Position numbers and translations under genes: made by a program | The notes under the pieces: generated by a model | The model's database searches: none | Seen by the model: only the letters and a program-made list of their open reading frames with translations | Told to the model about the DNA's origin: nothing | In this document: one piece after another, positions 3,442 through 45,543 of the stretch | Layout of the letters: the number at the start of each line of letters is the position of its first letter | Position numbering within the stretch: the stretch's first letter is position 1 | Assembly: GCA_003647275.1 (NCBI GenBank) | Contig: QMMN01000013.1 | Coordinates: forward strand, 1 to 55,934 | Origin: Deltaproteobacteria bacterium | GTDB taxonomy: Bacteria > Desulfobacterota > Desulfobacteria > Desulfobacterales > C00003060 | Direction of reading: 5' to 3' | Length of the DNA stretch: 55,934 nucleotides

Positions 3442-3449
3442 GAACTATG

Positions 3450-3670
3450 CCTCGTCCGAGACTATGCTCGGAAGAGGTGGCCCCCTCGTGGCAGATACTA
3501 TTCAAAATAAAAGTTTAAAGTGCCTAAAGTGAACTAAAGTGCCTAAAGTGAACTAAAGTGCCTAAAGTTAAGGAATGCGCTTTCAGCGCAACCTATTTTT
3601 AAGATTGACCACGCCGAAGGTGTGCACATTAACTTTAGCTCACTTTAGACACTTCAAACTTTAGTTCACT
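3450..3670. repeat. Family R palindrome, copy 2, with an extended flank
   Basis: Lies between convergent merR (+) and the DHH gene (-). The R core is in inverted orientation to copy 1. The flank at 3450-3515 (TGCCTCGTCCGAGAC... then GATACTATTCAAAATAAAAG) also occurs beside copy 3 at 18608-18680 in inverted orientation, so about 210 bp is shared between the two loci. The flank folds into a CCTC-TCCGAG/CTCGGA-GAGG hairpin. No gene is seen in this 306-nt gap. Confidence 0.8.
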
Positions 3671-5862: not shown

Positions 5863-8250
5863 CTACCTCAAGATTTTTTCAGCGTCAGGAAGGCCGAGGG
5901 CTTTCGCCTTCCTTGCATAAATTACAGCCTGTTTTCGATCCCCTTTTTGGTCGTACAGCACAGCTATTGCATAGTAATAATCTGCAAAATCAGGTCTTAG
6001 GATCAAGGCGCGCTTGTAGGCTGCAATCGCCTCATCCAGGCGTCCTGTTTGCCAATAGGCCGCGCCAAGGTTGTTAAGGGCTTCTTCATAATTAGGGTCC
6101 AGCGCGGCAGACCTTTTGAATGCAGAAATCGCTTTTTCAGTCCATCCTTTTTGGCCGTAAGCCACACCCAGGTTACTTTGGATCATTGCATCCTTAGGGG
6201 AAATGCTTGCAGCCCTTTCAAATGCCTCAATGGCCGCATCCGGTCGGCCCAGTCTCAGATAGGCAAGGCCCAGATTGTTGTGCAGTATTTTGAGCCCTGG
6301 AGAACGCTGGACGGCAAGTTCCAACATCTCGGCCGCCTTTTCGGGCCTGTCCAGTGTCATAAAGAGATTTCCCAGGGAAAAGAGCTGAAAAGGCATCACA
6401 AGGGTGTGGGGCGTTCGCCGGTTGAAAATCCTTTCAAGAGGGGAAAAAAAGCCGCTAAAACCCGGGATCGAGTCCGAGTTGGCTTCATCGGGTAACCAGT
6501 CTTTGAGGTCGATCGGCTTATCGTCATTGCCGCTTCGAAGTGTTTCAACAAACACAACGGCTGCGCCGTCGATGCAGACAAGCACCCAGTCAGGCCGATG
6601 GTAGAGATATCGGATGAGGTCGTCAGTGCTGCCGGCGCTGTGTGATAGGATCGCCCATCCAAACCCATATTGTGCTTGCAGGTTGTCCCAGCCATTCTCG
6701 GGATGGTTCATGGCTTCTCGATATGTGCTGTAAAAGGCCTCGGTGTGCACCTCCAGTCTTCCGTCAATGAATACCTTATAATCGGGGTAGAGGGTATAAA
6801 TCAGGTAACCCCCCAGCCCGAGATTGTTAAACATCGGTCCTTTCGGGTGATGCGCCCTGATCCAGTCGATACATCTTACAGGATAATAGTCCATCTCTGC
6901 GCCAAGGCCAAAGGACCTGTGTTTGTTTTCTGATATATAGAGGCGATTTGTACCAGCAAGGAAGATGGTGATGAGAACAGCGACCTGGAGGGCCACAAGC
7001 CCTGGAGTTTGGCACCAAGAGAAAAATTTTGTGACCTTGGCCAGGCCCTTTGGCAGCCGTTTCAGGCTAGATAGCCCATTTGTAAGGTTGTACAGCACGA
7101 TCGGGTAGGCCGCAATGGCAAAGAGATTGATGTTGCGCTTTGATTTTGCCGAGAGATAGGTCAATCCAGCACAAAGGATCAGGTGCGTGGGGTTTATCCT
7201 TTTGAAATTGGCAACAAATGAGAGGCCCACAATCAAAAGAAGGGCCACATAGGAGACCTTTAGGATGGTCCAGGATGTGCCGGGTCCAAAGAGAGATAGA
7301 AATTCGCCAATACTGGCCGAATAGATGCGCGCTTGGCCACTGATGCGGGTAAAGAGCGTGAGGGGAAACAGCAGCCCTTTTACGCCGTAAGGATTGACGA
7401 GGCATGCCAGGACTGACAGGATGCCCACAGCCACAAGCGGTTTCAGCGCTTTATTGGGTTCATCATTTGGCGTAAGGAAAACCGCTTCTCTTCGGCCTCC
7501 AATGTCTTTAACAGCTGCGCTGTTATCCTTGCTGGAAATGGCTGGATGCCTACGTTCAGCGGTCTCCCTTACTTCCTTTAATAAGATCTCTCTGTTTGGA
7601 GAAGAGAAAAATCGCCATTTTGTGGTCATCCACTCGCCCAGCAAAAAAGACCAGATTGCGAAAAGCCCGATCACGAAAAGGCCGTGCACATTCACCCAGA
7701 GCACTTGAAGAAAGGGAAGGGCATAAAGGGCCTTTCTTCGGCCTTCAGTATAAGCCCACAAGACTTTGAGGTAGATGGCAAGAAAAAGCATGGACAGGGC
7801 CTCAGGCCGCACCAGGAGTCGGTAGGAGGTGATCAAAACCGTCAGGAAAAATAATGCCAGGCCAAGAAGCTTGTATTCTTTGGCAGGGTAAGTCCTGAAG
7901 ACGACAAACAGGGTTAAAAGGACAAGTAACGACTTGAACAGGATGAGACCATCTCCGCCGACCATGCGATACAGGGTGTGGGAAAGAATTTGAAATCCCC
8001 AGTGAAGGTCCACCCACGGGGCATGCGTTGAGGTGAAGGAAAAGATATCGGATTTTGGAACAGTCCCCTGGTCTAAGATGAACGCACCGGTCTTTAAATG
8101 CCACCAGATATCCCAGTTCCCGATCTTGTGGATGGAAAAGACCAGGATCAGGAAAAAGAGCGAGACAATGGCGCTTCTTTGAAGGTTCCCTGCAGCTTGC
8201 TCCAGGGTTAGCAAACGCTTTTGCGGTTCAAGGATTTTGCGGCCACCCAT
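5863..8250 (-). CDS. Multispanning membrane protein with C-terminal TPR repeats (TPR protein A)
   Basis: The N-terminal about 480 residues are polytopic, with an early extracytoplasmic DIWWHLKTG motif resembling GT-C-type lipid-linked glycosyltransferases. The C-terminal about 180 residues hold about five TPR repeats (LHNNLGLAYLRLGRPDAAIE and similar). The biochemical role is unknown; a glycosyltransferase or polymer-handling role is an inference. I use the ATG at 8250 (795 aa). A TTG start at 8286 gives 807 aa, but neither has a good ribosome site and the first about 40 codons lie in repeated DNA. Residues about 227-260 are encoded by a palindromic element also present in TPR proteins B and C. 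Confidence 0.8.
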   Translation of the reverse strand: MGGRKILEPQKRLLTLEQAAGNLQRSAIVSLFFLILVFSIHKIGNWDIWWHLKTGAFILDQGTVPKSDIFSFTSTHAPWVDLHWGFQILSHTLYRMVGGDGLILFKSLLVLLTLFVVFRTYPAKEYKLLGLALFFLTVLITSYRLLVRPEALSMLFLAIYLKVLWAYTEGRRKALYALPFLQVLWVNVHGLFVIGLFAIWSFLLGEWMTTKWRFFSSPNREILLKEVRETAERRHPAISSKDNSAAVKDIGGRREAVFLTPNDEPNKALKPLVAVGILSVLACLVNPYGVKGLLFPLTLFTRISGQARIYSASIGEFLSLFGPGTSWTILKVSYVALLLIVGLSFVANFKRINPTHLILCAGLTYLSAKSKRNINLFAIAAYPIVLYNLTNGLSSLKRLPKGLAKVTKFFSWCQTPGLVALQVAVLITIFLAGTNRLYISENKHRSFGLGAEMDYYPVRCIDWIRAHHPKGPMFNNLGLGGYLIYTLYPDYKVFIDGRLEVHTEAFYSTYREAMNHPENGWDNLQAQYGFGWAILSHSAGSTDDLIRYLYHRPDWVLVCIDGAAVVFVETLRSGNDDKPIDLKDWLPDEANSDSIPGFSGFFSPLERIFNRRTPHTLVMPFQLFSLGNLFMTLDRPEKAAEMLELAVQRSPGLKILHNNLGLAYLRLGRPDAAIEAFERAASISPKDAMIQSNLGVAYGQKGWTEKAISAFKRSAALDPNYEEALNNLGAAYWQTGRLDEAIAAYKRALILRPDFADYYYAIAVLYDQKGDRKQAVIYARKAKALGLPDAEKILR
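7472..7572. repeat. In-frame palindromic element, copy A
   Basis: Ends GTAAGGAAAACCGCT and AGCGGTCTCCCTTAC are imperfect inverted repeats. The interior includes GGAAATGGCTGGATGCC. On the - strand it is read as RETAERRHPAISSKD... GGRREAVFLTP in the host protein, between predicted membrane segments. About 12 bp beyond the right-hand end as read on the gene strand is also shared with copies B and C. Confidence 0.85.
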
Positions 8251-8423
8251 ACTCAAATCCGAGAAAATTGAAGATTCCTGCAGCAAGCTGCAGGGACTCT
8301 TCGACCGTAAGGAAGTTAACCATCTCCGCAGGTGGTATTTAGACGCTCGCTAACCCCGCAGCCCGCGAAGCACTGCCGTCAGGCAGAACCTACAGGGTTA
8401 GCGAGCGCTGTTGCGGTTTAAAG
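8203..8423. repeat. REP-like palindromic repeat overlapping the 5' end of TPR protein A
   Basis: CGCTCGCTAACCC (8344-8356) and GGGTTAGCGAGCG (8395-8407) form a perfect 13-bp inverted repeat. A diverged direct copy of its right side (AGGGTTAGCAAACGCTTTTG) lies at about 8205-8228, inside the N-terminal codons of the gene. GCTGCAGGGAA-like segments also recur on both sides. Confidence 0.65.
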
Positions 8424-10779: not shown

Positions 10780-12927
10780 TTAATCGAGGCCCCCTTCAAG
10801 CCTTCTTATCTTTTCCAAGACCTTTTCACGAAGGGGTGTGTTGGGTCTCAGTGCCAGATAGCGCCTGTAATGGGCCACGGCTTCCTTTCTCTTCAAGGGA
10901 TTTAGGCTGTACAGGCTGCCCAGACTTAGATAGGCCTCTGCTGTGCGAGGGTTTAATCGCACGGCTTTTTTTAAGACCGCTTCTGCATCGTCATACATCT
11001 CGAGGCTCATCCACACCCCTCCGAGATTGGTGCAGGTGCAGGCATTTTGAGGGTTGATCTCGAGGGATTTTTGGTAGGCCTGTATGGCCTTCCCGTATTG
11101 TTTCAATCTTCGAAACAGGTTCCCCATGTTGAAGTAGGTATTTGCCGCTGAATCCGGGGCCTGTTCGATGACCGCCTGATAGTATTTGAGGGCCTCTTCA
11201 TACATCCCCTTTTCAGCGTAAGCCACACCCAGGTTATGCATGGCAATGGGATTGTGTCCGGCTCCGGTTTTAAGCGGTATATAGGGCATGGCCAGTACTT
11301 TCTTGTACGCGGCAATTGCTTCGTCCAGCCGGCCGGCCTTGTGAAGGGCCTCACCATAGTTGTTATACGGCCTGCTTAGGCCAGGGGACTTTTTGATGGC
11401 ATCCGCCCAGAGGGTGAGTTCGTCTTGCCATATGCGGTTTCGCATAAAGGTCAGGATTGCAAGGGTCACAATAATCGGGATCGCAATGGACCAGAACAGA
11501 CGGGGCCGCTTCGTGTATCTATAGATGTCTGCAATAATGAACGCAAGTGCTATCATGGAAAGATAAACCCGGTGTTCAGCCACAAATATCTTGTTGGGGA
11601 TGATGCTGGAGGTGACTGACAGGGTCACAAAAAACCAGAGGATGCCAAGGGAGATCAGGCGAGATCGACGGTAGACCCAAAGTGCAAAAGCCGCCAGCAT
11701 CATTATTCCCAGACAGGCGACCAATGTGGTGTTGTCAAACAGGCTGCTTGACACATGAAAATCGTGCTCAATATTTTGCCCGAAAGGCCACACCAAAAGC
11801 CTCAGGTAGATCCCCCATATAATACCAAGCTGTGAAAAAAAATAGGTCTGCCTGGTCAATTGTTCAGGTGCCCATCGTGGCAACAGCTTGTCCATGCCTG
11901 AAACCGACTCGGTTATGGCGTCCAGGTTGGGTGCCTTGAGTACGACGAGGTGGACGTATGGAATGATCAAACCGGTCATAAGAAGCGGCAGGAGATAAAG
12001 GAGCCGTTTCCCAGGGCCCTTAAGGTCATGTTGCACAAAGAAAAATTCGATTAGTACAAGCACCACAGGGAGCGTAAGGGCCATCTCCTTGGTAAGCATG
12101 GCCAGGGTTGCTGTCAAAACAGAAAGGGTGTACCAGGCGAGGTGATTCATGCTGAAAAATAGCTTTTTATGGGGTAATTGTTCAGCATCTGGGGTAAGAA
12201 AAACCGCTTCTCTTCGGCATCCAATGCCTTTAGTCGCTGTGCTGGTATCCTTGCTGGAAATGGCTGGATGCCTACGTTCAGCGGTATTCCTTACCCCGTG
12301 AGCGGTTATTTTATGGTCGGCCCTGTGGGTCGCCCCGCACAAGATCATGCTTCGGGCTTTTAGGTAACAGACGACAGCGGCCACATAGAAAAGGGTGGCC
12401 AAGGATGTATAACGTTGCGATATGTAGGTCACGGACTGGGTGGCCAGGGGATGGGCCAAAAAGATCAGGGCACCAAAAAAAGCGGGCCAGAAGCGGGTAT
12501 CATTGAGCAGGGGGAAAAGTGGGATCCCCCCGCGATTCAAGGGATCGGATCCTCCGGAAGTCTTATTCGCTTTACAAAGACAGAGGATCACAAAGAGTAA
12601 ATGATAGACCAGGAATGCCGTGCATACATGGATGAGAAGGTTGACGATATGGTAGCCCAGCACATCAGGGCCAGCGAGCCAGTAGTTGAAGGCAAAGCTC
12701 AATTCAGCGATCACGCGTGTGTTGGCCCTTTTGCCGGCCAGGGTGCACCTGTTCAGGATGTCCTGAAACGTGCTGTCCACAAACACATGTCTGTCGTCAT
12801 AATGGGGGGGGACATTGAACGTGTTTGAATAGATGGCCAAGCCGATGGCAAGAAAGAAGAACAAGACCATTATATGGGTCTTCAAATATCTGTGGCTCAG
12901 TTCTTGGGGATCAGGATGACAGGTCAT
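10780..12927 (-). CDS. TMTC/GT-C-like membrane protein with C-terminal TPR repeats (TPR protein B)
   Basis: A 715-residue protein. Multiple membrane spans occupy residues about 18-480. The first extracytoplasmic loop carries YSNTFNVPPHYDDRHVF, where the DD pair resembles the acidic site of PMT/TMTC-type glycosyltransferases. Four or five TPR repeats follow at about 495-715. It is a paralog of protein C just upstream, whose end overlaps its start by 17 nt, so the two are probably co-translated. Residues about 211-246 come from the palindromic element. The last about 115 residues are nearly identical to those of the + strand gene at 15744. A protein-glycosylation role is inferred. Confidence 0.8.
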   Translation of the reverse strand: MTCHPDPQELSHRYLKTHIMVLFFFLAIGLAIYSNTFNVPPHYDDRHVFVDSTFQDILNRCTLAGKRANTRVIAELSFAFNYWLAGPDVLGYHIVNLLIHVCTAFLVYHLLFVILCLCKANKTSGGSDPLNRGGIPLFPLLNDTRFWPAFFGALIFLAHPLATQSVTYISQRYTSLATLFYVAAVVCYLKARSMILCGATHRADHKITAHGVRNTAERRHPAISSKDTSTATKGIGCRREAVFLTPDAEQLPHKKLFFSMNHLAWYTLSVLTATLAMLTKEMALTLPVVLVLIEFFFVQHDLKGPGKRLLYLLPLLMTGLIIPYVHLVVLKAPNLDAITESVSGMDKLLPRWAPEQLTRQTYFFSQLGIIWGIYLRLLVWPFGQNIEHDFHVSSSLFDNTTLVACLGIMMLAAFALWVYRRSRLISLGILWFFVTLSVTSSIIPNKIFVAEHRVYLSMIALAFIIADIYRYTKRPRLFWSIAIPIIVTLAILTFMRNRIWQDELTLWADAIKKSPGLSRPYNNYGEALHKAGRLDEAIAAYKKVLAMPYIPLKTGAGHNPIAMHNLGVAYAEKGMYEEALKYYQAVIEQAPDSAANTYFNMGNLFRRLKQYGKAIQAYQKSLEINPQNACTCTNLGGVWMSLEMYDDAEAVLKKAVRLNPRTAEAYLSLGSLYSLNPLKRKEAVAHYRRYLALRPNTPLREKVLEKIRRLEGGLD
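10796..11140. repeat. Duplicated TPR-coding segment (inverted partner at 17240-17585)
   Basis: The - strand here and the + strand at 17240-17585 encode the same C-terminal TPR block (NLFRRLKQYGKAIQAYQK..., ...TPLREKVLE). Nucleotide identity looks about 90% over the sampled core, far higher than in the rest of the two genes. This suggests recent duplication or gene conversion. Confidence 0.75.
12191..12297. repeat. In-frame palindromic element, copy B
   Basis: Ends GGGGTAAGAAAAACCGCT and AGCGGTATTCCTTACCCC are near-perfect inverted repeats, 107 bp end to end. Translated on the - strand it gives RNTAERRHPAISSKD... CRREAVFLTPD. Relative to its paralog C the insertion lies before the membrane segment HLAWYTLSVLTATLAML. 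Confidence 0.88.
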
Positions 12928-15352
12928 GGTCTTGGATGTGATTCATCAATCGTCGATTTTCATGAAGGAGGGCCTCCACCTCGCTGCGCCTGGCATCATC
13001 AGGCGACAGTTGCAAGAAGCGATTAAGGTGGAAGACAGCAAGCCGGTTATCCTTGAGATGGTGTGAGTAGATGATCCCAAGATTGAGATGGGCCGGGGCA
13101 AAATTTGAATTGTACGAAAGGGCCGTCTGGTAAGCTTCTTTGGCCTTATTATAAGCCTTTTTCATCATGAGGATGTTTCCCAGGTTATTGTAAAAGGATG
13201 GGACGCCAGGTTTCAGGCGGATGGCCTTTCTGTAATTTTTTTCAGCCTCATCCAGGCGGTTCAACCCCACCAGGGCGTTCCCCTTGTTATAATAGGCTTC
13301 TGCAAACCCGGGCCTGAGCGATACCACCCTGTCGTATAATCGAACGGCCTGGCCATGCTCACCTCTGGCAAGATGGATATCTGCCAGATTCAGGTAGGCT
13401 TCCGCAAAATCAGGTTTCATCCTTATGGCCTGTTGTAAGCAGTCCTCAGACCTTGCCAGTTGGCCGTGTGCATAATAGATTTCAGAGAGCTTGAACAGGA
13501 TATCGGGAAATAAAAGGTGCGGAAATGAATGCTGGGTCGAAAGGATCTTTTTATAGGCCTTTACAGCCTCCTCCCATGCCCCCATTTTTTCATAGGTCTT
13601 TCCCAGGTTGTAAAGCACGGTCGGCGAGTCAGGTCTGATTTGGGCAGCCTGATGGAAACTCTCCAGGGCCTCCTGATATCTCTTTTGATCAACATAGACG
13701 TTTCCCAGGTTATTGTAGGCGATGTAGTGGTCCTTACCCTCGCGCCAAGGTTCCGGAGGGACGGCCAGGGCTCTTTTGTAGGCGGCCACGGCTTCGTCCA
13801 GCCGCCCGACCTCTCGCAGGGCCCGACCATAGTTGATGAGGGGCCGGGACCTTTCAGGTGATTTTTGGCTTGCATCAGCCCACAGGGTCAGGGGGGTTTG
13901 CCATACCCTGTTTCGCCAATAGGTGAGTCCGGAAGCCAGCAATAGGACGGGAATCAATGCACAGATATAGCGTTTCCAGCGGTGTTCCCATTTGGGCAGG
14001 GCAGCTACCACAAAGCTCATGCCGATCAGGGGGATATATGCCCGATGCTCTGCCACGAACTCGGTATTTGGAACGATGCTACTGGTGGGCGAAATTGTGA
14101 GCAAAAACCACATGATACCAAAGGAGGCAAGCCTTGACCGCCTGAAAAGCCAGAGCCCAACACCAAACAGGGTGCCCAGGAAAAGAAAGGAGGCAAGGAC
14201 GGGCGTTTCAAACAGGCTTTCAGATACCACAAAGGCGTGGTCGACATTTTGACCGATCGGCCAGACCATGAGCTTAAGATAGGTCCCCACAATGACCTTG
14301 AGTTGTGTGAAAAAGTAGCTTGAACGCGACACCGTGGGTGCCCAGGTCGTCAGGGTGTCAAGGGCGTCGAGGGACTTGGGACCAGGGGCTTTTCCACTCA
14401 GTGTACGCACAGCAGGAATGATGAGAACCGTGGTCAAAAGCGGGAAGAGGTACAGGATCCGTTTTTGAAGGGCTCCAAAGCCTGTTTGTAATCGTTCACC
14501 ATTTGGGCTAAGGGAGACCGCTTCTTTTCGGCCTCCAATGCCTTTATACGGTGTGCCGGTATCCTCGGTTGAAATGGCTGGATGCCTACATTCAGCGGTC
14601 TCCCTTAGCCCCTGAACTGTTACGTCTGTTTTAATAAAATAGTATTCAGTCATCAGGATTGCAACAGGAAGCGTGATCGATACTTCCTTGGTGAGCATGG
14701 CAAAGACTGCCAGGAAAAAGGAGACCGCATACCAGACGAGGTGGGGTGCTGCGAAAAAACGATCGTTTTGTTTAAAGATGACCCGTGCCCGCACAAAGGA
14801 TGCCAGGGTGCCCATGTAAAAAAATGCTGCCAGCGAGGTATAGCGCTGGGTTATATAAGTGACGGCCTGTGTGGCCAGGGGGTGGACAAGAAACAGGGCG
14901 CTTCCCAAAAGGGCGGGCCAGAGCATTGGATGCCGGGTGCCCGGGATGTCTCTATGGGCCGCTGTGCCGTGATTTTCATGCGGCCTATCTTCAAATGACG
15001 GGCAAGGGCCTTGCTCGTTACATTGATGCAGGACAAGAGATAAAAAAACATAAATCAAATAGGCCGTTCCAATATGCACCAGGATGTTGAAAAGATGATA
15101 GCCAAGCACGTGTGTGCCGGAAAGCCAGTAATTGAATGCAAAGGTAAGCTCGGCAATGACACGGTTTCCCCCGCCCCTTAAGGTACATTTATTGAAGATC
15201 TCCTCCAGGGAAAGCCCTGCAAAGACGTGTTCATCGTCAAAGTGAAAAGAGGCATTGAGTGTGTTGGAATAGATTAAGAGAGCCCAGAGCAGAAATATCA
15301 AAAGGACGGCCTTGTGTGGTACTCGGCATGATGGCAAACATACTTTATACAT
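12911..15352 (-). CDS. TMTC/GT-C-like membrane protein with long TPR array (TPR protein C)
   Basis: Paralog of protein B (813 residues from the ATG at 15352; a TTG at 15364 adds four). The N-terminal half is polytopic, with YSNTLNASFHFDDEHVF in the first loop and the acidic pair conserved. The C-terminal about 330 residues contain about eight or nine TPR units (SPTVLYNLGKTYEKMGAWEE, FAEAYYNKGNALVGLNRLDE and others). Residues about 248-283 derive from the palindromic element, placed after the membrane helix that follows the element in B. The function is not established; TPRs suggest a protein-binding role coupled to a lipid-linked sugar transferase. Confidence 0.8.
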   Translation of the reverse strand: MYKVCLPSCRVPHKAVLLIFLLWALLIYSNTLNASFHFDDEHVFAGLSLEEIFNKCTLRGGGNRVIAELTFAFNYWLSGTHVLGYHLFNILVHIGTAYLIYVFLSLVLHQCNEQGPCPSFEDRPHENHGTAAHRDIPGTRHPMLWPALLGSALFLVHPLATQAVTYITQRYTSLAAFFYMGTLASFVRARVIFKQNDRFFAAPHLVWYAVSFFLAVFAMLTKEVSITLPVAILMTEYYFIKTDVTVQGLRETAECRHPAISTEDTGTPYKGIGGRKEAVSLSPNGERLQTGFGALQKRILYLFPLLTTVLIIPAVRTLSGKAPGPKSLDALDTLTTWAPTVSRSSYFFTQLKVIVGTYLKLMVWPIGQNVDHAFVVSESLFETPVLASFLFLGTLFGVGLWLFRRSRLASFGIMWFLLTISPTSSIVPNTEFVAEHRAYIPLIGMSFVVAALPKWEHRWKRYICALIPVLLLASGLTYWRNRVWQTPLTLWADASQKSPERSRPLINYGRALREVGRLDEAVAAYKRALAVPPEPWREGKDHYIAYNNLGNVYVDQKRYQEALESFHQAAQIRPDSPTVLYNLGKTYEKMGAWEEAVKAYKKILSTQHSFPHLLFPDILFKLSEIYYAHGQLARSEDCLQQAIRMKPDFAEAYLNLADIHLARGEHGQAVRLYDRVVSLRPGFAEAYYNKGNALVGLNRLDEAEKNYRKAIRLKPGVPSFYNNLGNILMMKKAYNKAKEAYQTALSYNSNFAPAHLNLGIIYSHHLKDNRLAVFHLNRFLQLSPDDARRSEVEALLHENRRLMNHIQDHDLSS
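14505..14611. repeat. In-frame palindromic element, copy C
   Basis: Terminal arms GGGCTAAGGGAGACCGCT (14505-14522) and AGCGGTCTCCCTTAGCCC (14594-14611) are a perfect 18-bp inverted repeat, 107 bp end to end. The - strand reading is RETAECRHPAISTED... GRKEAVSLSPN. This is the least degenerate of the three copies. Confidence 0.9.
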
Positions 15353-15364
15353 CGATTCGATCAA

Positions 15365-15743: not shown

Positions 15744-17609
15744 ATGATGTCAGAAACCGGAAATTTAAATATGCGGCTGTTGACAAAGAGTTGGGTCGTA
15801 CGTGTCTTGAAGACAGAACGGCTATGGATTATCTTGATTGTCGCTATAAACCTATTCCTTTCAGGTGCCTATCTCCACGAACTTTATGAAAGCGGACTAG
15901 TCGATCTGAATTTCCAGGAAGGACTCGATTCGCTCACCTACCACTTACGCGGTGTCTCCATTGCTGAAGGGGGACTGCACTGGATAACCGTCGGGCATGC
16001 TTTATACAATGCCATAGTCGGAGTCATATACTCTGTATTTGGTATTAAACCTCTCTGGATCTTTATCTTTCAGATTCTCTTGTGTTCCTTGGGATGTATA
16101 TTGCTTTATGTCTTAGGGAAAAAAATCTTTAACCCCTTTGTGGGTCTCTTGGCCGCTGCCATTTATGCTATTTATCCCGTTTCAATTTATTATACAGGGA
16201 TTATAGCCCGCGTGAATGTGGTGGCCTTTTTAAGTCTGCTCATGGTCTACATACTGACACTATGCTTAGAAAAGAAAGGCTTGTTACGGTATGCAATGGC
16301 TGTTGTAGTGTGCTCTCTCGCTGTTTCAGGCCGTTACAACATTTTGCTATTTATAGTTGCCTTTGCATTTTGGTTCCTATTTTTTCGGCATAATCTGCTG
16401 AAAAGGAATTCCTTTGTTCCTACCGTCTTGACAGGTCTCGGTTTCTTGCTTGCTACATTAGGACTGGCGTTTTGGGTTCAATTGCCCGACTTATTCAACC
16501 TCAAGCCATGGGTAATCGGAAATAGTTATGATTCCAACATGTTTTACTGTTCTCCACACAAGGAATTGATTCCTGTCGTATCAAAAGATTTTCTTCTAAG
16601 ACAAATCTATAAGGCATTTGCATTTTTCAATACCTTTGAGGCACCAAACAATTTTAACTATTATCTCTTCCGCGAAAAGGTCCGCCTTCTGCAATATCTA
16701 CCCATTTCTTTTGGCGTAATCTTTCCATTTGCCATGGTTGGCTTTGTTTCTGCTTTCAAAAACAAGAAAAATATCATGCCCGTGGCCTTGTTTGTCTGCT
16801 TTTATTCGATTTCCATAATCATATTCTTTATAGCCTCACGGTACCGCCAGCCGATTGTCCCTTTTATGATATTGATGATGTCTTATGGTATTTATGACAT
16901 CTATACCAATCTCAGAGAAAAAAGACATAAGCGCGTTGTCTCCCAAATGGCCTTTCTAATGCTGATGACACTCCTTTCCACCTGGAAGCCCGACTGTATC
17001 AAGAATGTTGAAACGGCCTGCAACGCGATTCATAGAGTAAATTTTGGCAATCTCTATAAAAGGAATGGAGAGCATCTCAAGGCCATACAAGAGTTTAAAC
17101 GCGCTATCGAGACAACACCTACATATTGGGCAGCCTATCACAACCTCGGGGCTCTGTATGCCAAGCAGGGAATGTACAAGGAGGCCTTGGACACCTATCG
17201 AGTGGTTATCCAAGAAGCCAAGGATTACCAGGCGGCTGATGCCTATTTTAATATAGGAAACCTGTTTCGAAGATTGAAACAATACGGAAAGGCCATACAG
17301 GCCTATCAAAAAGCCCTCGAGATCAATCCTCAAGATGCCTGCATCTATACCAATCTCGGAGGGGTGTGGATGAACCTCGAGATGTACGATGATGCAGAGG
17401 TAGCCTTAAAAAAGGCCGTGCGATTAAACCCTCGCGCAGCAGAGGCCTATCTAAACCTGGGCAGTCTGTACAGCCGAGATCCTTTGAAGAAAAAGGAAGC
17501 CATTGCAAATTACAGGTGCTATCTGGTGCTTAAGCCGGATACACCTCTTCGAGAAAAGGTCCTGGAAAGAATAAAAAAGCTGCAAAGTAATGTGAAAGAC
17601 CAGGGATAG
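15744..17609 (+). CDS. PMT/GT39-like membrane glycosyltransferase with C-terminal TPRs
   Basis: A 621-residue protein with about ten membrane spans (residues about 25-410) and a first-loop NFQEGLDSLTYHLRGVSIAE segment typical of ArnT/PMT-type GT39 enzymes, which transfer sugars from polyprenyl-phosphate donors. Residues about 430-621 form four TPR repeats almost identical to those of protein B on the other strand. The membrane part looks AT-richer than neighbouring genes, while the TPR part matches them, consistent with a chimeric origin. Acceptor and donor are unknown. Confidence 0.75.
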   Translation: MMSETGNLNMRLLTKSWVVRVLKTERLWIILIVAINLFLSGAYLHELYESGLVDLNFQEGLDSLTYHLRGVSIAEGGLHWITVGHALYNAIVGVIYSVFGIKPLWIFIFQILLCSLGCILLYVLGKKIFNPFVGLLAAAIYAIYPVSIYYTGIIARVNVVAFLSLLMVYILTLCLEKKGLLRYAMAVVVCSLAVSGRYNILLFIVAFAFWFLFFRHNLLKRNSFVPTVLTGLGFLLATLGLAFWVQLPDLFNLKPWVIGNSYDSNMFYCSPHKELIPVVSKDFLLRQIYKAFAFFNTFEAPNNFNYYLFREKVRLLQYLPISFGVIFPFAMVGFVSAFKNKKNIMPVALFVCFYSISIIIFFIASRYRQPIVPFMILMMSYGIYDIYTNLREKRHKRVVSQMAFLMLMTLLSTWKPDCIKNVETACNAIHRVNFGNLYKRNGEHLKAIQEFKRAIETTPTYWAAYHNLGALYAKQGMYKEALDTYRVVIQEAKDYQAADAYFNIGNLFRRLKQYGKAIQAYQKALEINPQDACIYTNLGGVWMNLEMYDDAEVALKKAVRLNPRAAEAYLNLGSLYSRDPLKKKEAIANYRCYLVLKPDTPLREKVLERIKKLQSNVKDQG

Positions 17610-17678: not shown

Positions 17679-18455
17679 TCAGCTTTCATCCGTGTAATTT
17701 TGAGGTAATAAGCTATTTTCTCGGTTATACGTTTCCATAATCCGGTCAACCTCTTCCTGCATGCGCGAAAAGGCCTCTTCGGTAAAGGGTTTTACGTCCT
17801 TGAGTGCGGGGTCCAGGGGGTCAGCCGGATTGAAGTTTTGAAGGGTAAGGGATAGGGGAGGGCTTACAGATCCGCCCGATCCAAGGCCTTTCAACTGCTC
17901 GGCCATGCGATAAATATCGGATTCATCAAGGAGCGAGGGGGAGACCGTGCACCGAAACATATAGGGGACCATGCCTGCCATCAGGACCTCGATTGATTTC
18001 TGGATGATGCTGACCGGTACATAGACACCGGCGCACCGGGCATATATTGGGTCATCCAGGGGGGCCTTCACGTCCATGGCCACGCAGTCCACCAGTTTTT
18101 CTGCGATCAGATAATGGAGCGTTTCAGGTTGGGTGCCATTGGTGTCAAGTTTGGTCTTGAACCCGGCCTCATGAATCGTTTTCAGCAGGGCCGGCAGCCC
18201 CCTGTGGATCGTAGGCTCCCCGCCTGTGATGCAGATCCCATCAACCCAGTCGTTGAACGGCTGGAGCCGTTCCAGTATTGTCTCAAGAGAAAGGGTTTCC
18301 AGGGTATCCGGCTTTAAGACAAGTTGGTGGTTATGACAATAGGGACACCTGAGGTTACAATAGGGCAAAAAGATGACGGCACAAATATGGCCCGGCCAAT
18401 CTAAAAATGAGGTTTCAATAAAGCCTTTAATGGGGGGAAGCTGATCATTGGTCAT
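17679..18455 (-). CDS. nrdG: Anaerobic ribonucleoside-triphosphate reductase activating protein
   Basis: Radical-SAM activase that abstracts hydrogen from the glycyl-radical residue of NrdD. The cluster motif CNLRCPYC (Cys33, Cys37, Cys40; CX3CX2C) follows the family start GFIETSFLDWPGHICAV. GGEPTIH binds SAM. At 258 residues it is the longer form common in strict anaerobes, compared with the shorter E. coli NrdG. It is the last gene of the nrdD cluster on the - strand, separated from the glutaredoxin-like gene by a 226-nt gap filled by a family R repeat. Confidence 0.93.
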   Translation of the reverse strand: MTNDQLPPIKGFIETSFLDWPGHICAVIFLPYCNLRCPYCHNHQLVLKPDTLETLSLETILERLQPFNDWVDGICITGGEPTIHRGLPALLKTIHEAGFKTKLDTNGTQPETLHYLIAEKLVDCVAMDVKAPLDDPIYARCAGVYVPVSIIQKSIEVLMAGMVPYMFRCTVSPSLLDESDIYRMAEQLKGLGSGGSVSPPLSLTLQNFNPADPLDPALKDVKPFTEEAFSRMQEEVDRIMETYNRENSLLPQNYTDES

Positions 18456-18466
18456 TTCAAAGACAA

Positions 18467-18680
18467 GAGTGAGCTAAAGTGCCTAAAGTGAACTAAAGTG
18501 AGCTAAAGTTAATGTGCACGCCTTTTGGCGTGGTCAATCTTAAAAATAGGCTGCGCTGAAAGCGCATTCCTTAACTTTAGGCACTTTAGTTCACTTTAGG
18601 CACTTTAAACTTTTATTTTGAATAGTATCTACCCCAAAGGGGCCACCTCTTCCAAGGGAAGTCTTGGACGAGGCGTAGTT
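18467..18680. repeat. Family R palindrome, copy 3, with the extended flank
   Basis: R arms and core (GTGCACGCC...GGCGTGG, TGCGCTGAAAGCGCA) span 18467-18610. The following 70 nt match, inverted, the flank beside copy 2 at 3450-3515. It sits inside the nrd cluster, between the glutaredoxin-like gene and nrdG. A TTACTAGTGACTGGTGAC piece at 18678-18695 resembles family U at 33603-33737. Confidence 0.8.
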
Positions 18681-23872: not shown

Positions 23873-23939
23873 ATTAGTAAAGTTCTCCTAATCAACTCAA
23901 GACTATGTGCACGTCGAAACTGTGAGCAAATACCAAGCA

Positions 23940-24172
23940 AGTGCCTAAAGTGAACTAAAGTGAGCTAACGTGCCTAAAGTTAAAGAGATTAAGGAATTAA
24001 GGAATTGAGGGATTAAGATCATATGAAATTCATTCAATTCACAATTCCTGAATTGCTGATGATTACATCCAACTTTAGCTCACTTTAGGCACTTTAGTTC
24101 ACTTTAGTTCACTTTAGCTCACTTTAGCTCACTTTAGCTCACTTTAGGCACTTTAGTTCACTTTAGCTCACT
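23940..24172. repeat. Family R palindrome, copy 4, with a different core
   Basis: The left arm (23940-23982) and a long right arm (24072-24172) are made of about ten AGTGNNCTAA-type units. The usual R core is absent; instead there is a GGAATTAAGGAATTGAGGGA run and ATTCAATTCACAATTCCTGA. The end of the right arm is also the end of the next gene: its stop codon TAA lies in a GAGCTAAAG unit. Confidence 0.85.
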
Positions 24173-26274: not shown

Positions 26275-26460
26275 GTGGATTACTTTTTGTGTGTATTGGG
26301 AATGGTGATGATCGTGGAGGGCCTCCCTTACTTTGCCGTACCCTCCAGGATAAAGATTTGGGTCCAAAAGCTTATTGAACTGCCTGATTCAAGCCTTCGG
26401 CTCATGGGATTTTTCCTCATGCTTGCCGGACTTGGCCTGGTCTATTTGGGGAGACAATAG
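26275..26460 (+). CDS. DUF2065-family small inner-membrane protein
   Basis: A 61-residue protein with two hydrophobic helices: YFLCVLGMVMIVEGLPYFAV and GFFLMLAGLGLVYLGR. This is the YjeT/DUF2065 pattern, function unknown. I choose GTG at 26275 because GAGGAG lies 5 nt before it and the result matches the family length; the open frame extends to a TTG at 26218 without support. It stands alone between the ligase gene and a family R repeat. Confidence 0.8.
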   Translation: MDYFLCVLGMVMIVEGLPYFAVPSRIKIWVQKLIELPDSSLRLMGFFLMLAGLGLVYLGRQ

Positions 26461-26703
26461 TCTAAAGTGAGCTAAAGTTTAAAGTGTCTAAAGTGAGCTA
26501 AAGTTTAAAGTGCCTAAAGTGAACTAAAGTGCCTAAAGTGAGCTAAAGTTAATGTGCACGCTTTTTCAGCCGTCGTAGCCAGGGCTACTTTGGCGAAGTC
26601 TGCTGGCGAGGCCAATCTTAAAAACAGGTTGCGCTGAAAGCGCATTCCTTAACTTTAGGCACTTTAGTTCACTTTAGGCACTTTAGTTCACTTTAGGCAC
26701 TAG
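26460..26703. repeat. Family R palindrome, copy 5
   Basis: Begins at the DUF2065 stop codon and ends 19 nt before queA. The left arm has about seven AGTGNNCTAAAG units, including TTTAAAGTG variants. The core has about 45 nt of extra sequence between the GTGCACGC and GGCCAATC halves compared with copies 1 and 3. It ends with two CACTTTAGGCACTTTAGTT units. Confidence 0.85.
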
Positions 26704-26721
26704 ATTTATCAAGGAATCTTC

Positions 26722-33751: not shown

Positions 33752-34636
33752 ATGGAACTTTTTTTAATGACCCTCACTACGGGTATCATGGTGGGTGGTA
33801 TTTATGCCCTCATAGCCCTCGGATGGGTGCTTATTTACAAGTGTTCAGGCGTGCTGAACCTCGCCATGGGAGAACTGACCCTTATCGGTGCCTATGTGTC
33901 CCTGAGCTTTTATTCCATGGGCATCCCCTTTCTCCTTGCCCTCCTTTTTTCGCTGATCATTGGGTTTATTCTGGGGATCTTAACCGAAAGAATTTTCCTT
34001 GACAGACTCATTGGCGAACCGATCCTGACGGTCATCATGGTCACTGTAGGGCTATCTTTTTTCTTCCGGGGGATCGTGGAACTCATATGGGGAACCGATA
34101 CCCGGGTATTCACGCCGCCTGTTTTTCCATTGGAGCCGATCCACATTGGGCCATTGATTGTCGGCCAGGTTTATCTATGGAGCTTTGTAGCCGCCATTAT
34201 TCTTCTGTGTATCTTTGTGGTTTTTTTTCAATACACCCGATGGGGTCTTGCCATGCAGGCCACGGCCGATGATGAGATGGCAGCGCTGTCCCTTGGCGTG
34301 AGTGCCCGCTTTGTTTATGCAACGGCCTGGGCCATTGCGTTCATGGCTGCTGGCGTTGGAGGCACCCTTTTAGGGAATATTAACGGACTCAATATTTCCG
34401 TCGGCTACCTCGGGCTGCTGGTCCTGCCGGCAGTGGTGCTCGGCGGCCTTAATTCAGTGCCTGGAGCCATCATGGGCGGCATAATTATTGGTGTGTTGCA
34501 GAACCTGAGCGGGGCTTACCTGGATAGGTACTTTCCAGGGGGTGTGAAAGAGATCGCCCCATTTGTCTTTATGGCTGTTTTCTTGCTTTTTAAACCATAC
34601 GGGCTCTGGGGCTGGGAGCGGATTGAACGGGTGTGA
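33752..34636 (+). CDS. livH: Branched-chain-type ABC transporter permease (LivH-like)
   Basis: 294-residue inner-membrane permease with about eight helices. Family segments are GIYALIALGWVLIYKCSGVLNLAMGELT at the N-terminus, the cytoplasmic coupling loop around TADDEMAALSLGVSARFVYA, and PGAIMGGIIIGVLQNL near the C-terminus. AGGAG lies 8 nt before the ATG. Pairs with LivM. Confidence 0.94.
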   Translation: MELFLMTLTTGIMVGGIYALIALGWVLIYKCSGVLNLAMGELTLIGAYVSLSFYSMGIPFLLALLFSLIIGFILGILTERIFLDRLIGEPILTVIMVTVGLSFFFRGIVELIWGTDTRVFTPPVFPLEPIHIGPLIVGQVYLWSFVAAIILLCIFVVFFQYTRWGLAMQATADDEMAALSLGVSARFVYATAWAIAFMAAGVGGTLLGNINGLNISVGYLGLLVLPAVVLGGLNSVPGAIMGGIIIGVLQNLSGAYLDRYFPGGVKEIAPFVFMAVFLLFKPYGLWGWERIERV

Positions 34637-34644
34637 AAAACCCA

Positions 34645-34820
34645 AGTGCCTAAAGTGAGCTAAAGTGCCTAAAGTTAAGGTATTCTGCCAATTTTGTATA
34701 CTTTTCCCAATAGGGGTAGATATTGCATGAGAACGCTTCGTCGTCCATTTTCAAAATTGACTGCGCTGAAAGCGCATTCCTCAACTTTAGCTCACTTTAG
34801 ACACTTCAAACTTTAGGCAC
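34645..34820. repeat. Family R palindrome, copy 6
   Basis: Lies between livH and livM. The left arm has three units. The core keeps only the half with TGCGCTGAAAGCGCA; the other half is replaced by unrelated sequence. The right arm ends TTCAAACTTTAGGCAC, 21 nt before livM. Confidence 0.8.
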
Positions 34821-34841
34821 TAAACTGATGGAGTCAACCTT

Positions 34842-35942
34842 ATGTCAACAACATTTCTCCCATGCGGAGTTTACCATGAAAACTATCCCCAGGATCATGC
34901 ATGGTGGCAAACGAAATTTGTCAAGGGAAAGATGATCCTGCTCTTTCTGCTCGTCTTTGTGGTGATTCCTCTACTTGCAGATGCCTATTGGATCAGCGTC
35001 TGCAATCAGATTGGCTACACGATTCTAGGGGCTTTAGGGGTACAGCTTTTGATCGGTTATTGCGGCCAGGTTACCCTCGGTCACGCCGCATTTCTTGCGG
35101 TAGGCGCCTACACCAGCACCTTACTTATCCTGGAGTTCCCGTGGCCCAAGTTTCTGATAGATTGGGGTATTGCCTATCCCATCAGCATCGTCATTGCTGC
35201 GGTCGTCGCCGGCATCTGGAGTGTCCTCTTTGGTCTCCCTTCGGCCAAGGTCAAAGGATTCTACCTGATTTTAACAACCATGGCAGCCCAGTTCATTACC
35301 GTTGATTTTGTTATTACGCAGTATGTGAGCCAGATCGGAGGTCGGGGCCAGGCCTTTTCCTTACCGCCTGGAACCATCAAGATCGGACCATGGGTTATTG
35401 ATAGCGACCAAAAGGTCTATTTCATGATGCTTATTTTGGTGATCATGTGTGTGATCGGTTTAGCCAACCTCCTCCGGTCCAGGGCCGGCAGGGCCTGGGT
35501 GGCGATCCGAGACAATGATATTTCTGCTGAGGTCATGGGGATTAATATTGTCAAGTACAAGCTCCTGGCCTTTTTTGTGGCCGGATTTATCGGCGGGATC
35601 GCAGGGGCCTTCTGGATCAGCAACCTGGCGGCCATCAGTCCCGAGCACTTCCCCTGGTTCTGGTCCCTGTGGCTGGTGGGCGTGATTCTTATCGGAGGAG
35701 TGGGCTCCATACATGGGGCCATCTTCGGCTCCATCTTCATGGTGGTGGTCATGGAGCTATTGCAATTGGCCATCATGCCTCTTGCTGACACGTATCCTAA
35801 GCTGTTGATGGACTTTTTGTTTATCAAGGAGGCCGCCTTTGGCCTGGCCATTTGTGCCTTTTTGATTTTTGAACCTAATGGCCTGGCCTACCGCTGGTGG
35901 CAAATCAAGAATTATTTCAATCTATGGCCATTTTCGTACTAG
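34842..35942 (+). CDS. livM: Branched-chain-type ABC transporter permease (LivM-like)
   Basis: 366-residue permease with about nine or ten helices. Typical LivM segments are GYCGQVTLGHAAFLAVGAYT, RAGRAWVAIRDNDISAEVMG (coupling loop) and GGVGSIHGAIFGSIFMVV. It has an unusually long polar N-terminus (about 25 residues before the first helix). GGAG lies 8 nt upstream of the ATG. Confidence 0.93.
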   Translation: MSTTFLPCGVYHENYPQDHAWWQTKFVKGKMILLFLLVFVVIPLLADAYWISVCNQIGYTILGALGVQLLIGYCGQVTLGHAAFLAVGAYTSTLLILEFPWPKFLIDWGIAYPISIVIAAVVAGIWSVLFGLPSAKVKGFYLILTTMAAQFITVDFVITQYVSQIGGRGQAFSLPPGTIKIGPWVIDSDQKVYFMMLILVIMCVIGLANLLRSRAGRAWVAIRDNDISAEVMGINIVKYKLLAFFVAGFIGGIAGAFWISNLAAISPEHFPWFWSLWLVGVILIGGVGSIHGAIFGSIFMVVVMELLQLAIMPLADTYPKLLMDFLFIKEAAFGLAICAFLIFEPNGLAYRWWQIKNYFNLWPFSY

Positions 35943-45476: not shown

Positions 45477-45543
45477 AATGCCTAAAATACCTAAAGTGAA
45501 GTAAAGTTTGAGTCATCAACTTTAGCTCACTTTAGTCACTCAA
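45477..45543. repeat. Family R palindrome, copy 7 (short, core-less)
   Basis: ATGCCTAAAATACCTAAAGTGAAGTAAAG faces CTTTAGCTCACTTTAG across only a 13-nt centre (TTTGAGTCATCAA). The R core is absent, so this is a minimal hairpin form directly before the 45581 gene. Confidence 0.75.

Follow-up and report, generated by a model that had tools for sequence, protein, structure and literature searches.

Three coding genes in the window (the whole 55,934-nucleotide stretch analyzed here: positions 1–55,934, forward strand, of contig QMMN01000013.1, assembly GCA_003647275.1, Deltaproteobacteria bacterium, Desulfobacterales, C00003060) carry in frame a palindromic element that is very probably an IS66-type MITE, moved in trans and inserted with an 8-bp target duplication as an in-frame addition of 144 nt. 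The three copies (A, B and C) lie on the minus strand within ORFs of 807, 715 and 817 aa, respectively, and are read in a common frame as the peptide (V)RETAERRHPAIS..(K/R)EAV.L.P, with small changes between them (Table 1). A previous reading of the DNA (the sequence-only reading) had described a palindromic element with three in-frame copies in coding genes and with perfect 18-bp arms in copy C. The hairpins, the single frame and the three long ORFs confirmed this description, and the arms of copy C were borne out by an RNA-folding check (z = −7.1, with 0 of 200 shuffles as stable). The proposed length of about 105 bp did not hold, since copies B and C each span 136 bp and are flanked by 8-bp duplications. 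The outer ends of copy A are degenerate and its left end is no longer recognizable. Copy C is read in frame as VTVQGLRETAECRHPAISTEDTGTPYKGIGGRKEAVSLSPNGERL within a TPR membrane protein. The window also contains an inverted repeat with 350-nt arms that are 85% complementary; TPR coding sequence of the copy B host gene makes up one arm, and the other lies within an oppositely oriented 621-aa ORF. A 19-bp-spaced repeat (GTGCCTAAAGTGAACTAAA / TTTAGTTCACTTTAGGCAC) forms apparently intergenic clusters, several of them around a GCGCTGAAAGCGC-like hairpin, and similar repeats were seen at loci in other genomes.

Table 1. Positions of the three copies, their host genes and other repeats in the window.
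Feature	Position	Strand	Details
Host gene of copy A	5863..8286	-	membrane part and C-terminal TPR
Copy A, core hairpin	7468..7576	-	in frame in 807-aa membrane/TPR protein
Host gene of copy B	10780..12927	-	membrane part and C-terminal TPR
Copy B, target duplication, 8 bp	12166..12173	-	CCCATAAA; 7/8 identical
Copy B, complete element, 136 bp	12174..12309	-	in frame in 715-aa TPR membrane protein
Copy B, core hairpin	12190..12298	-	
Copy B, target duplication, 8 bp	12310..12317	-	ACCATAAA
Host gene of copy C	12911..15364	-	paralog of B, other insertion point
Copy C, target duplication, 8 bp, minus-strand 3' side	14480..14487	-	AAACAGGC; 7/8 identical to partner
Copy C, complete element, 136 bp	14488..14623	-	ends GTAACAGTTCA / GTAATCGTTCA
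Copy C, core hairpin	14504..14612	-	17-18 bp arms; internal loop TGAATGTA/GAAAAGAA; inner stem GGCATCCA/TGGAGGCC
Copy C, target duplication, 8 bp, minus-strand 5' side	14624..14631	-	AAACAGAC
350-nt inverted repeat, arms	10799-11148 / 17232-17581		
19-bp-spaced repeat clusters	84-303, 3443-3670, 18450-18680, 23912-24171, 26460-26720, 34617-34845, 45477-45540		

Once the flanks were included, copies sorted into types by their outer ends. Type 1, which includes window copies B and C, has GTAACNGTTCA inverted ends and is usually 136 bp long, type 2 has GTAACTTCTCAAAAAGTCC ends and a length of about 214 bp, and type 2c ends in GTAACGTTCAAAAGTTGAGG. Type 3 has unrelated ends, CTCAAGTTTCGCACCC. In type 1b (e.g. 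L150, L155, L158) the outer ends face the opposite way with respect to the core from those of type 1a, as though the core had been inverted between its arms. Target duplications were scored automatically. Perfect 8-bp duplications flanked 13 of 13 type 2 copies, and 18 of 36 type 1 copies had duplications that agreed at 6 or more of the 8 positions, while cross-paired flanks, used as the control, matched in 1.3–1.7%. The half of type 1 without a readable duplication probably reflects the age of those copies. No duplication was found in 4 of 4 type 2c copies in the automatic register. The element thus has the properties of a MITE, being short (136 or 214 bp), bounded by terminal inverted repeats, devoid of transposition genes of its own and associated with a target duplication of constant length (8 bp).

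An empty site in a relative was also found. The alignment of the copy C host gene with its ortholog in the congener G015 shows a single gap of 144 nt, which equals the 136-bp element plus its 8-bp duplication and hence 48 added codons. The insertions in the nucleotidyltransferase gene do not coincide between G000 and G015, and G015 has no insert at either of the positions used in G000. Together with the empty site of copy C, this bears out the earlier proposal that the insertions were independent. In RecD2 of G015 a copy sits between the HHH and the AAA domain; in 18 congeners the match to RecD2 is interrupted at this insertion point and the insert is lacking. The same linker in RecD2 of G016 (L302) holds a different palindromic repeat (CCCCGTTAG..CTAACGGGG), with the frame open.

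A candidate transposase was identified in congeners. In G014, an intact element of about 2.6 kb (L269) encodes an IS66 TnpC (PF03050, E = 1.8e-37) together with a DruA-family protein (PF14236, E = 1e-31); its ends are GTAACCGTTCACGG, and it is flanked on both sides by the 8-bp repeat AATAATTG. In G005 (L274), a 3' fragment of TnpC is followed by TACCCGGACTTATTGAGAAGTTAC, a type 2 MITE end with one difference. At both loci the MITE and the IS66 element therefore have ends in common, although these are short (11–16 bp). IS66 members produce 8-bp repeats (PMC3281130). The GTAACNGTTCA ends, the 8-bp duplications and the IS66/DruA element with GTAACCGTTCACGG ends argue together for a MITE of IS66 type. 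In the draft genome that the window comes from, neither IS66 nor DruA genes were found, and G001 and G007 yielded no IS66 gene, so that the mover is deduced from congeners; a scan of the own genome with GTAAYNGTTCA for an autonomous IS returned MITE copies, remnants and chance matches only. The terminal ends, the duplications and the empty site are all demonstrated, as is an IS66 element whose ends are the same. Mobilization by an IS66-type transposase would be the best explanation for them and is well supported. The type 3 copies, with their unrelated ends, indicate that the core is not bound to IS66 alone. A search for a transposase with type 3 ends yielded only contig-end fragments, and contigs of G017 stop at a multicopy repeat with the type 3 end CTCAAGTTTCGCACCC (L335–L338), the transposase of which is missing from the assembly. 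A lone DruA-family gene with perfect 20-bp inverted ends GTAACTTCTCAATAACTCAG was observed between two ABC-transporter genes in G002 (L280:1259–2563), which suggests that DruA proteins can be transposon genes.

In the mechanism that we propose, the MITE would provide no protein for its own movement, and its terminal repeats would be recognized by a transposase of the IS66 family acting in trans (TnpC, in some cases together with a DruA-type protein). Insertion would generate the 8-bp target duplication, and the common 136-bp form would thereby add its 144 nt, or 48 codons. With a stop-free sense frame (VTVQGVRETAERR..) and, usually, a stop-free antisense frame through the core, some genic insertions would stay readable and give a longer protein, and insertions in linkers and loops would be those that persist.

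Copy C used as a BLAST query revealed dispersed related DNA in its own genome (E to 6e-29, excluding the self match). A covariance model of the core hairpin, built from 25 copies, extended this to 22 places in that genome (E down to 2e-22), far above chance. The same model found more than 90 places in congeners, where 9 of 22 species genomes were positive (G000, G015, G007 and G001 being richest in copies) and 13 of 22 were without copies. Order-wide, 11 of 291 genomes in two genera were positive, and single copies occurred in one other family of Desulfobacterales. When about 85,000 named species genomes were scanned for the pattern, 46 stretches were obtained, all from Deltaproteobacteria/Desulfobacterales MAGs, and no copies of the element were found in the viral, phage and plasmid collections searched. 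Most copies are intergenic rather than genic. No neighbor or partner gene was consistent across copies, the families found being generic, and intergenic copies used both orientations with no convincing bias. Two short remnants in the own genome (L252 and L265) retain both type 1 ends while the core is gone, as expected from palindrome deletion.

The core is a 109-nt hairpin shared by elements whose ends are of three or more kinds (types 1, 2 and 3 among them). Among 67 copies, 16 of 17 arm pairs showed changes on both sides, and the whole core structure gave 213 both-side-change cells, compared with 62 after shuffling and 16–34 with partners slid, in an alignment that was fitted to the covariance model and hence leans towards structure. 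A model-free alignment of the first 25 copies gave 66 covarying cells versus 16. Covariation was also present within end types. Bases of the internal loop TGAACGTA/GAAGNGAA are mostly at least 90% conserved, and the inner bases are strongly conserved too. In a tree of the core, copies cluster by end type, which indicates that ends and core have mostly descended together and that exchange of ends was rare and old.

The covarying arm pairs, the conserved loops and the sharing of one core by types 1, 2 and 3 could mean that several unrelated MITEs carry as their core a functional module of structured RNA or ssDNA (a processing site, regulator or recombination substrate), the fold itself being selected. 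We regard this as possible but unlikely. An Rfam search of four loci gave no match at E up to 5, both gene orientations are used, neighboring genes are inconsistent, and template switching between the arms of a palindrome can also yield covariation. Near-identical type 2 copies differ by one compensated pair with the mismatched intermediate absent, and such pairs suit arm-to-arm template switching at least as well as selection on the fold. Rather unlikely, in our judgment, is also the more specific proposal that the 109-nt core is a selected structured module acquired by MITEs with unrelated ends (IS66-type GTAAC and CTCAAGTTTCGCACCC), aiding transposition or shielding host transcripts; if it were true, a MITE superfamily would be defined by its middle and not by its ends. 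The conservation of the core is most likely due to a fold on which active copies depend, or to repair of one palindrome arm from the other at replication, and not to a function of the peptide. A structured module would concern the core alone and is compatible with the whole element being a MITE.

In-frame copies were found in nine unrelated proteins, some of which are soluble enzymes. Six copies (L165, L158, L162, L194, L213 and L214) were left out of the genic count because they overlap ORF starts and the start codon is uncertain. The sense frame is used in the three window proteins, RecD2 (G015), a UvrD-like helicase/nuclease (G017), a nucleotidyltransferase/kinase protein (with two insertions in G000 and a single one in G015) and a LysM protein, whose insertion is orthologous between G000 and G015. 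Two further proteins, a double UvrA and an asparagine synthase, carry copies read in the antisense −1 frame. The emphasis that had been placed on membrane-protein genes was therefore wrong, as copies also reside in RecD2, UvrA, the helicase, the nucleotidyltransferase and the asparagine synthase. Several genic copies lie between domains and others in loops; no Pfam family describes the insert, and inserts fall between domains or interrupt them. The +1 (sense) frame of the core was open in 12 of 12 genic copies versus 39 of 58 others, and the antisense frame through the core was also stop-free in most copies. Because element and duplication together make whole codons (136 + 8 nt), insertions are frame-neutral. 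Some cores (L230, L228 and also the 142-nt copies L203, L164 and L227) contain a second repeat of 33 bp (CCTGCCCGC..GCGGGC type); at 11 codons it keeps the frame in genic copies. That the host proteins may still function after insertion is suggested solely by their intact frames in draft genomes.

If the insert were instead removed from the mRNA or bypassed by the ribosome, as a mini-intron or translational bypass, the protein would be unchanged. The stable hairpin, the conserved loops and the location within housekeeping-type genes would suit such an explanation, but neither the open sense frame of all 12 genic copies nor an insert plus duplication divisible by three would then be needed. Furthermore, the self-splicing introns known to us are all longer than the 109–136 nt available here. 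We consider removal or bypass very improbable. Scarcely credible is a REP/RAYT-type or other Y1-transposase hairpin element, which would match the dispersed hairpin copies with a conserved loop but not the 8-bp duplications and the GTAA inverted ends that match the IS66 element, since neither is a known product of Y1 single-strand transposition. Finally, although several proteins carry a near-identical peptide, RETAERR..EAVFLTP as an ordinary inherited protein motif is refuted by the lack of a Pfam family, by orthologs without the insert (RecD2 of 18 congeners lacks the peptide) and by dispersed, mostly intergenic DNA copies flanked by repeats and duplications.

Overall, the sequence-only reading was right in seeing a mobile, palindromic, independently inserted, in-frame element resembling the Rickettsia palindromic element (RPE), and in error on the membrane link and the ends. 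The terminal repeats, the 8-bp duplications, the IS66/DruA relatives and the covarying core common to differing ends go beyond its account. The best-known examples of selfish DNA that makes proteins longer and does not break genes come from Rickettsia and Wolbachia, and the uncultured Desulfobacterales provide an independent case. Here the sequences reveal the ends, the duplications and empty sites as well as a candidate transposase, so that the mechanism is directly testable, and a core that covaries across different ends raises the question of what keeps the middle of a MITE folded.

In-frame MITE fusions are known from RPEs, ERIC, RU-2 and the 107-bp Correia elements (PMC2229807; PMC10969869). 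RPEs and the Wolbachia palindromic repeats are similar to the present element in being palindromic, 105–150 bp long, dispersed, inserted in a preferred frame in unrelated conserved genes and also intergenic (PMC2229807, PMC10969869). They belong to another phylum, however, and the RPE target duplication was given as unknown in a 2007 review (PMC2229807), whereas here the ends and the 8-bp duplications are resolved and a candidate transposase family can be named. The likeness to RPEs is one of behavior, in that the preferred-frame insertion is found in Desulfobacterales/Deltaproteobacteria MAGs and not in a Rickettsiales host. ERIC, RU-2 and the 107-bp Correia elements are likewise small MITEs with open frames fused to genes (PMC2229807), but ERIC and Correia differ in having unrelated ends (5'-TA termini in PMC2229807) and unrelated hosts. 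With IS66 elements and their derived MITEs the present element shares the GTAAC ends of an IS66 TnpC/DruA element, the 8-bp duplication and the lack of a gene of its own; it differs in that length plus duplication is divisible by three and the core frame is open. Neither IS66 MITEs with in-frame fusions nor Desulfobacter MITEs were found in the open-access papers searched. Chimeric MITEs and nested repeats also combine a single core with varied outer ends, but here, with the core tree following end type, ends were exchanged rarely and long ago and not rampantly. The element is a MITE with an open frame that happens to suit genic insertion and not a new class of element; what is new is the lineage, the resolution of the ends together with an IS66/DruA relative, the arithmetic that gives 48 codons, and the common core.
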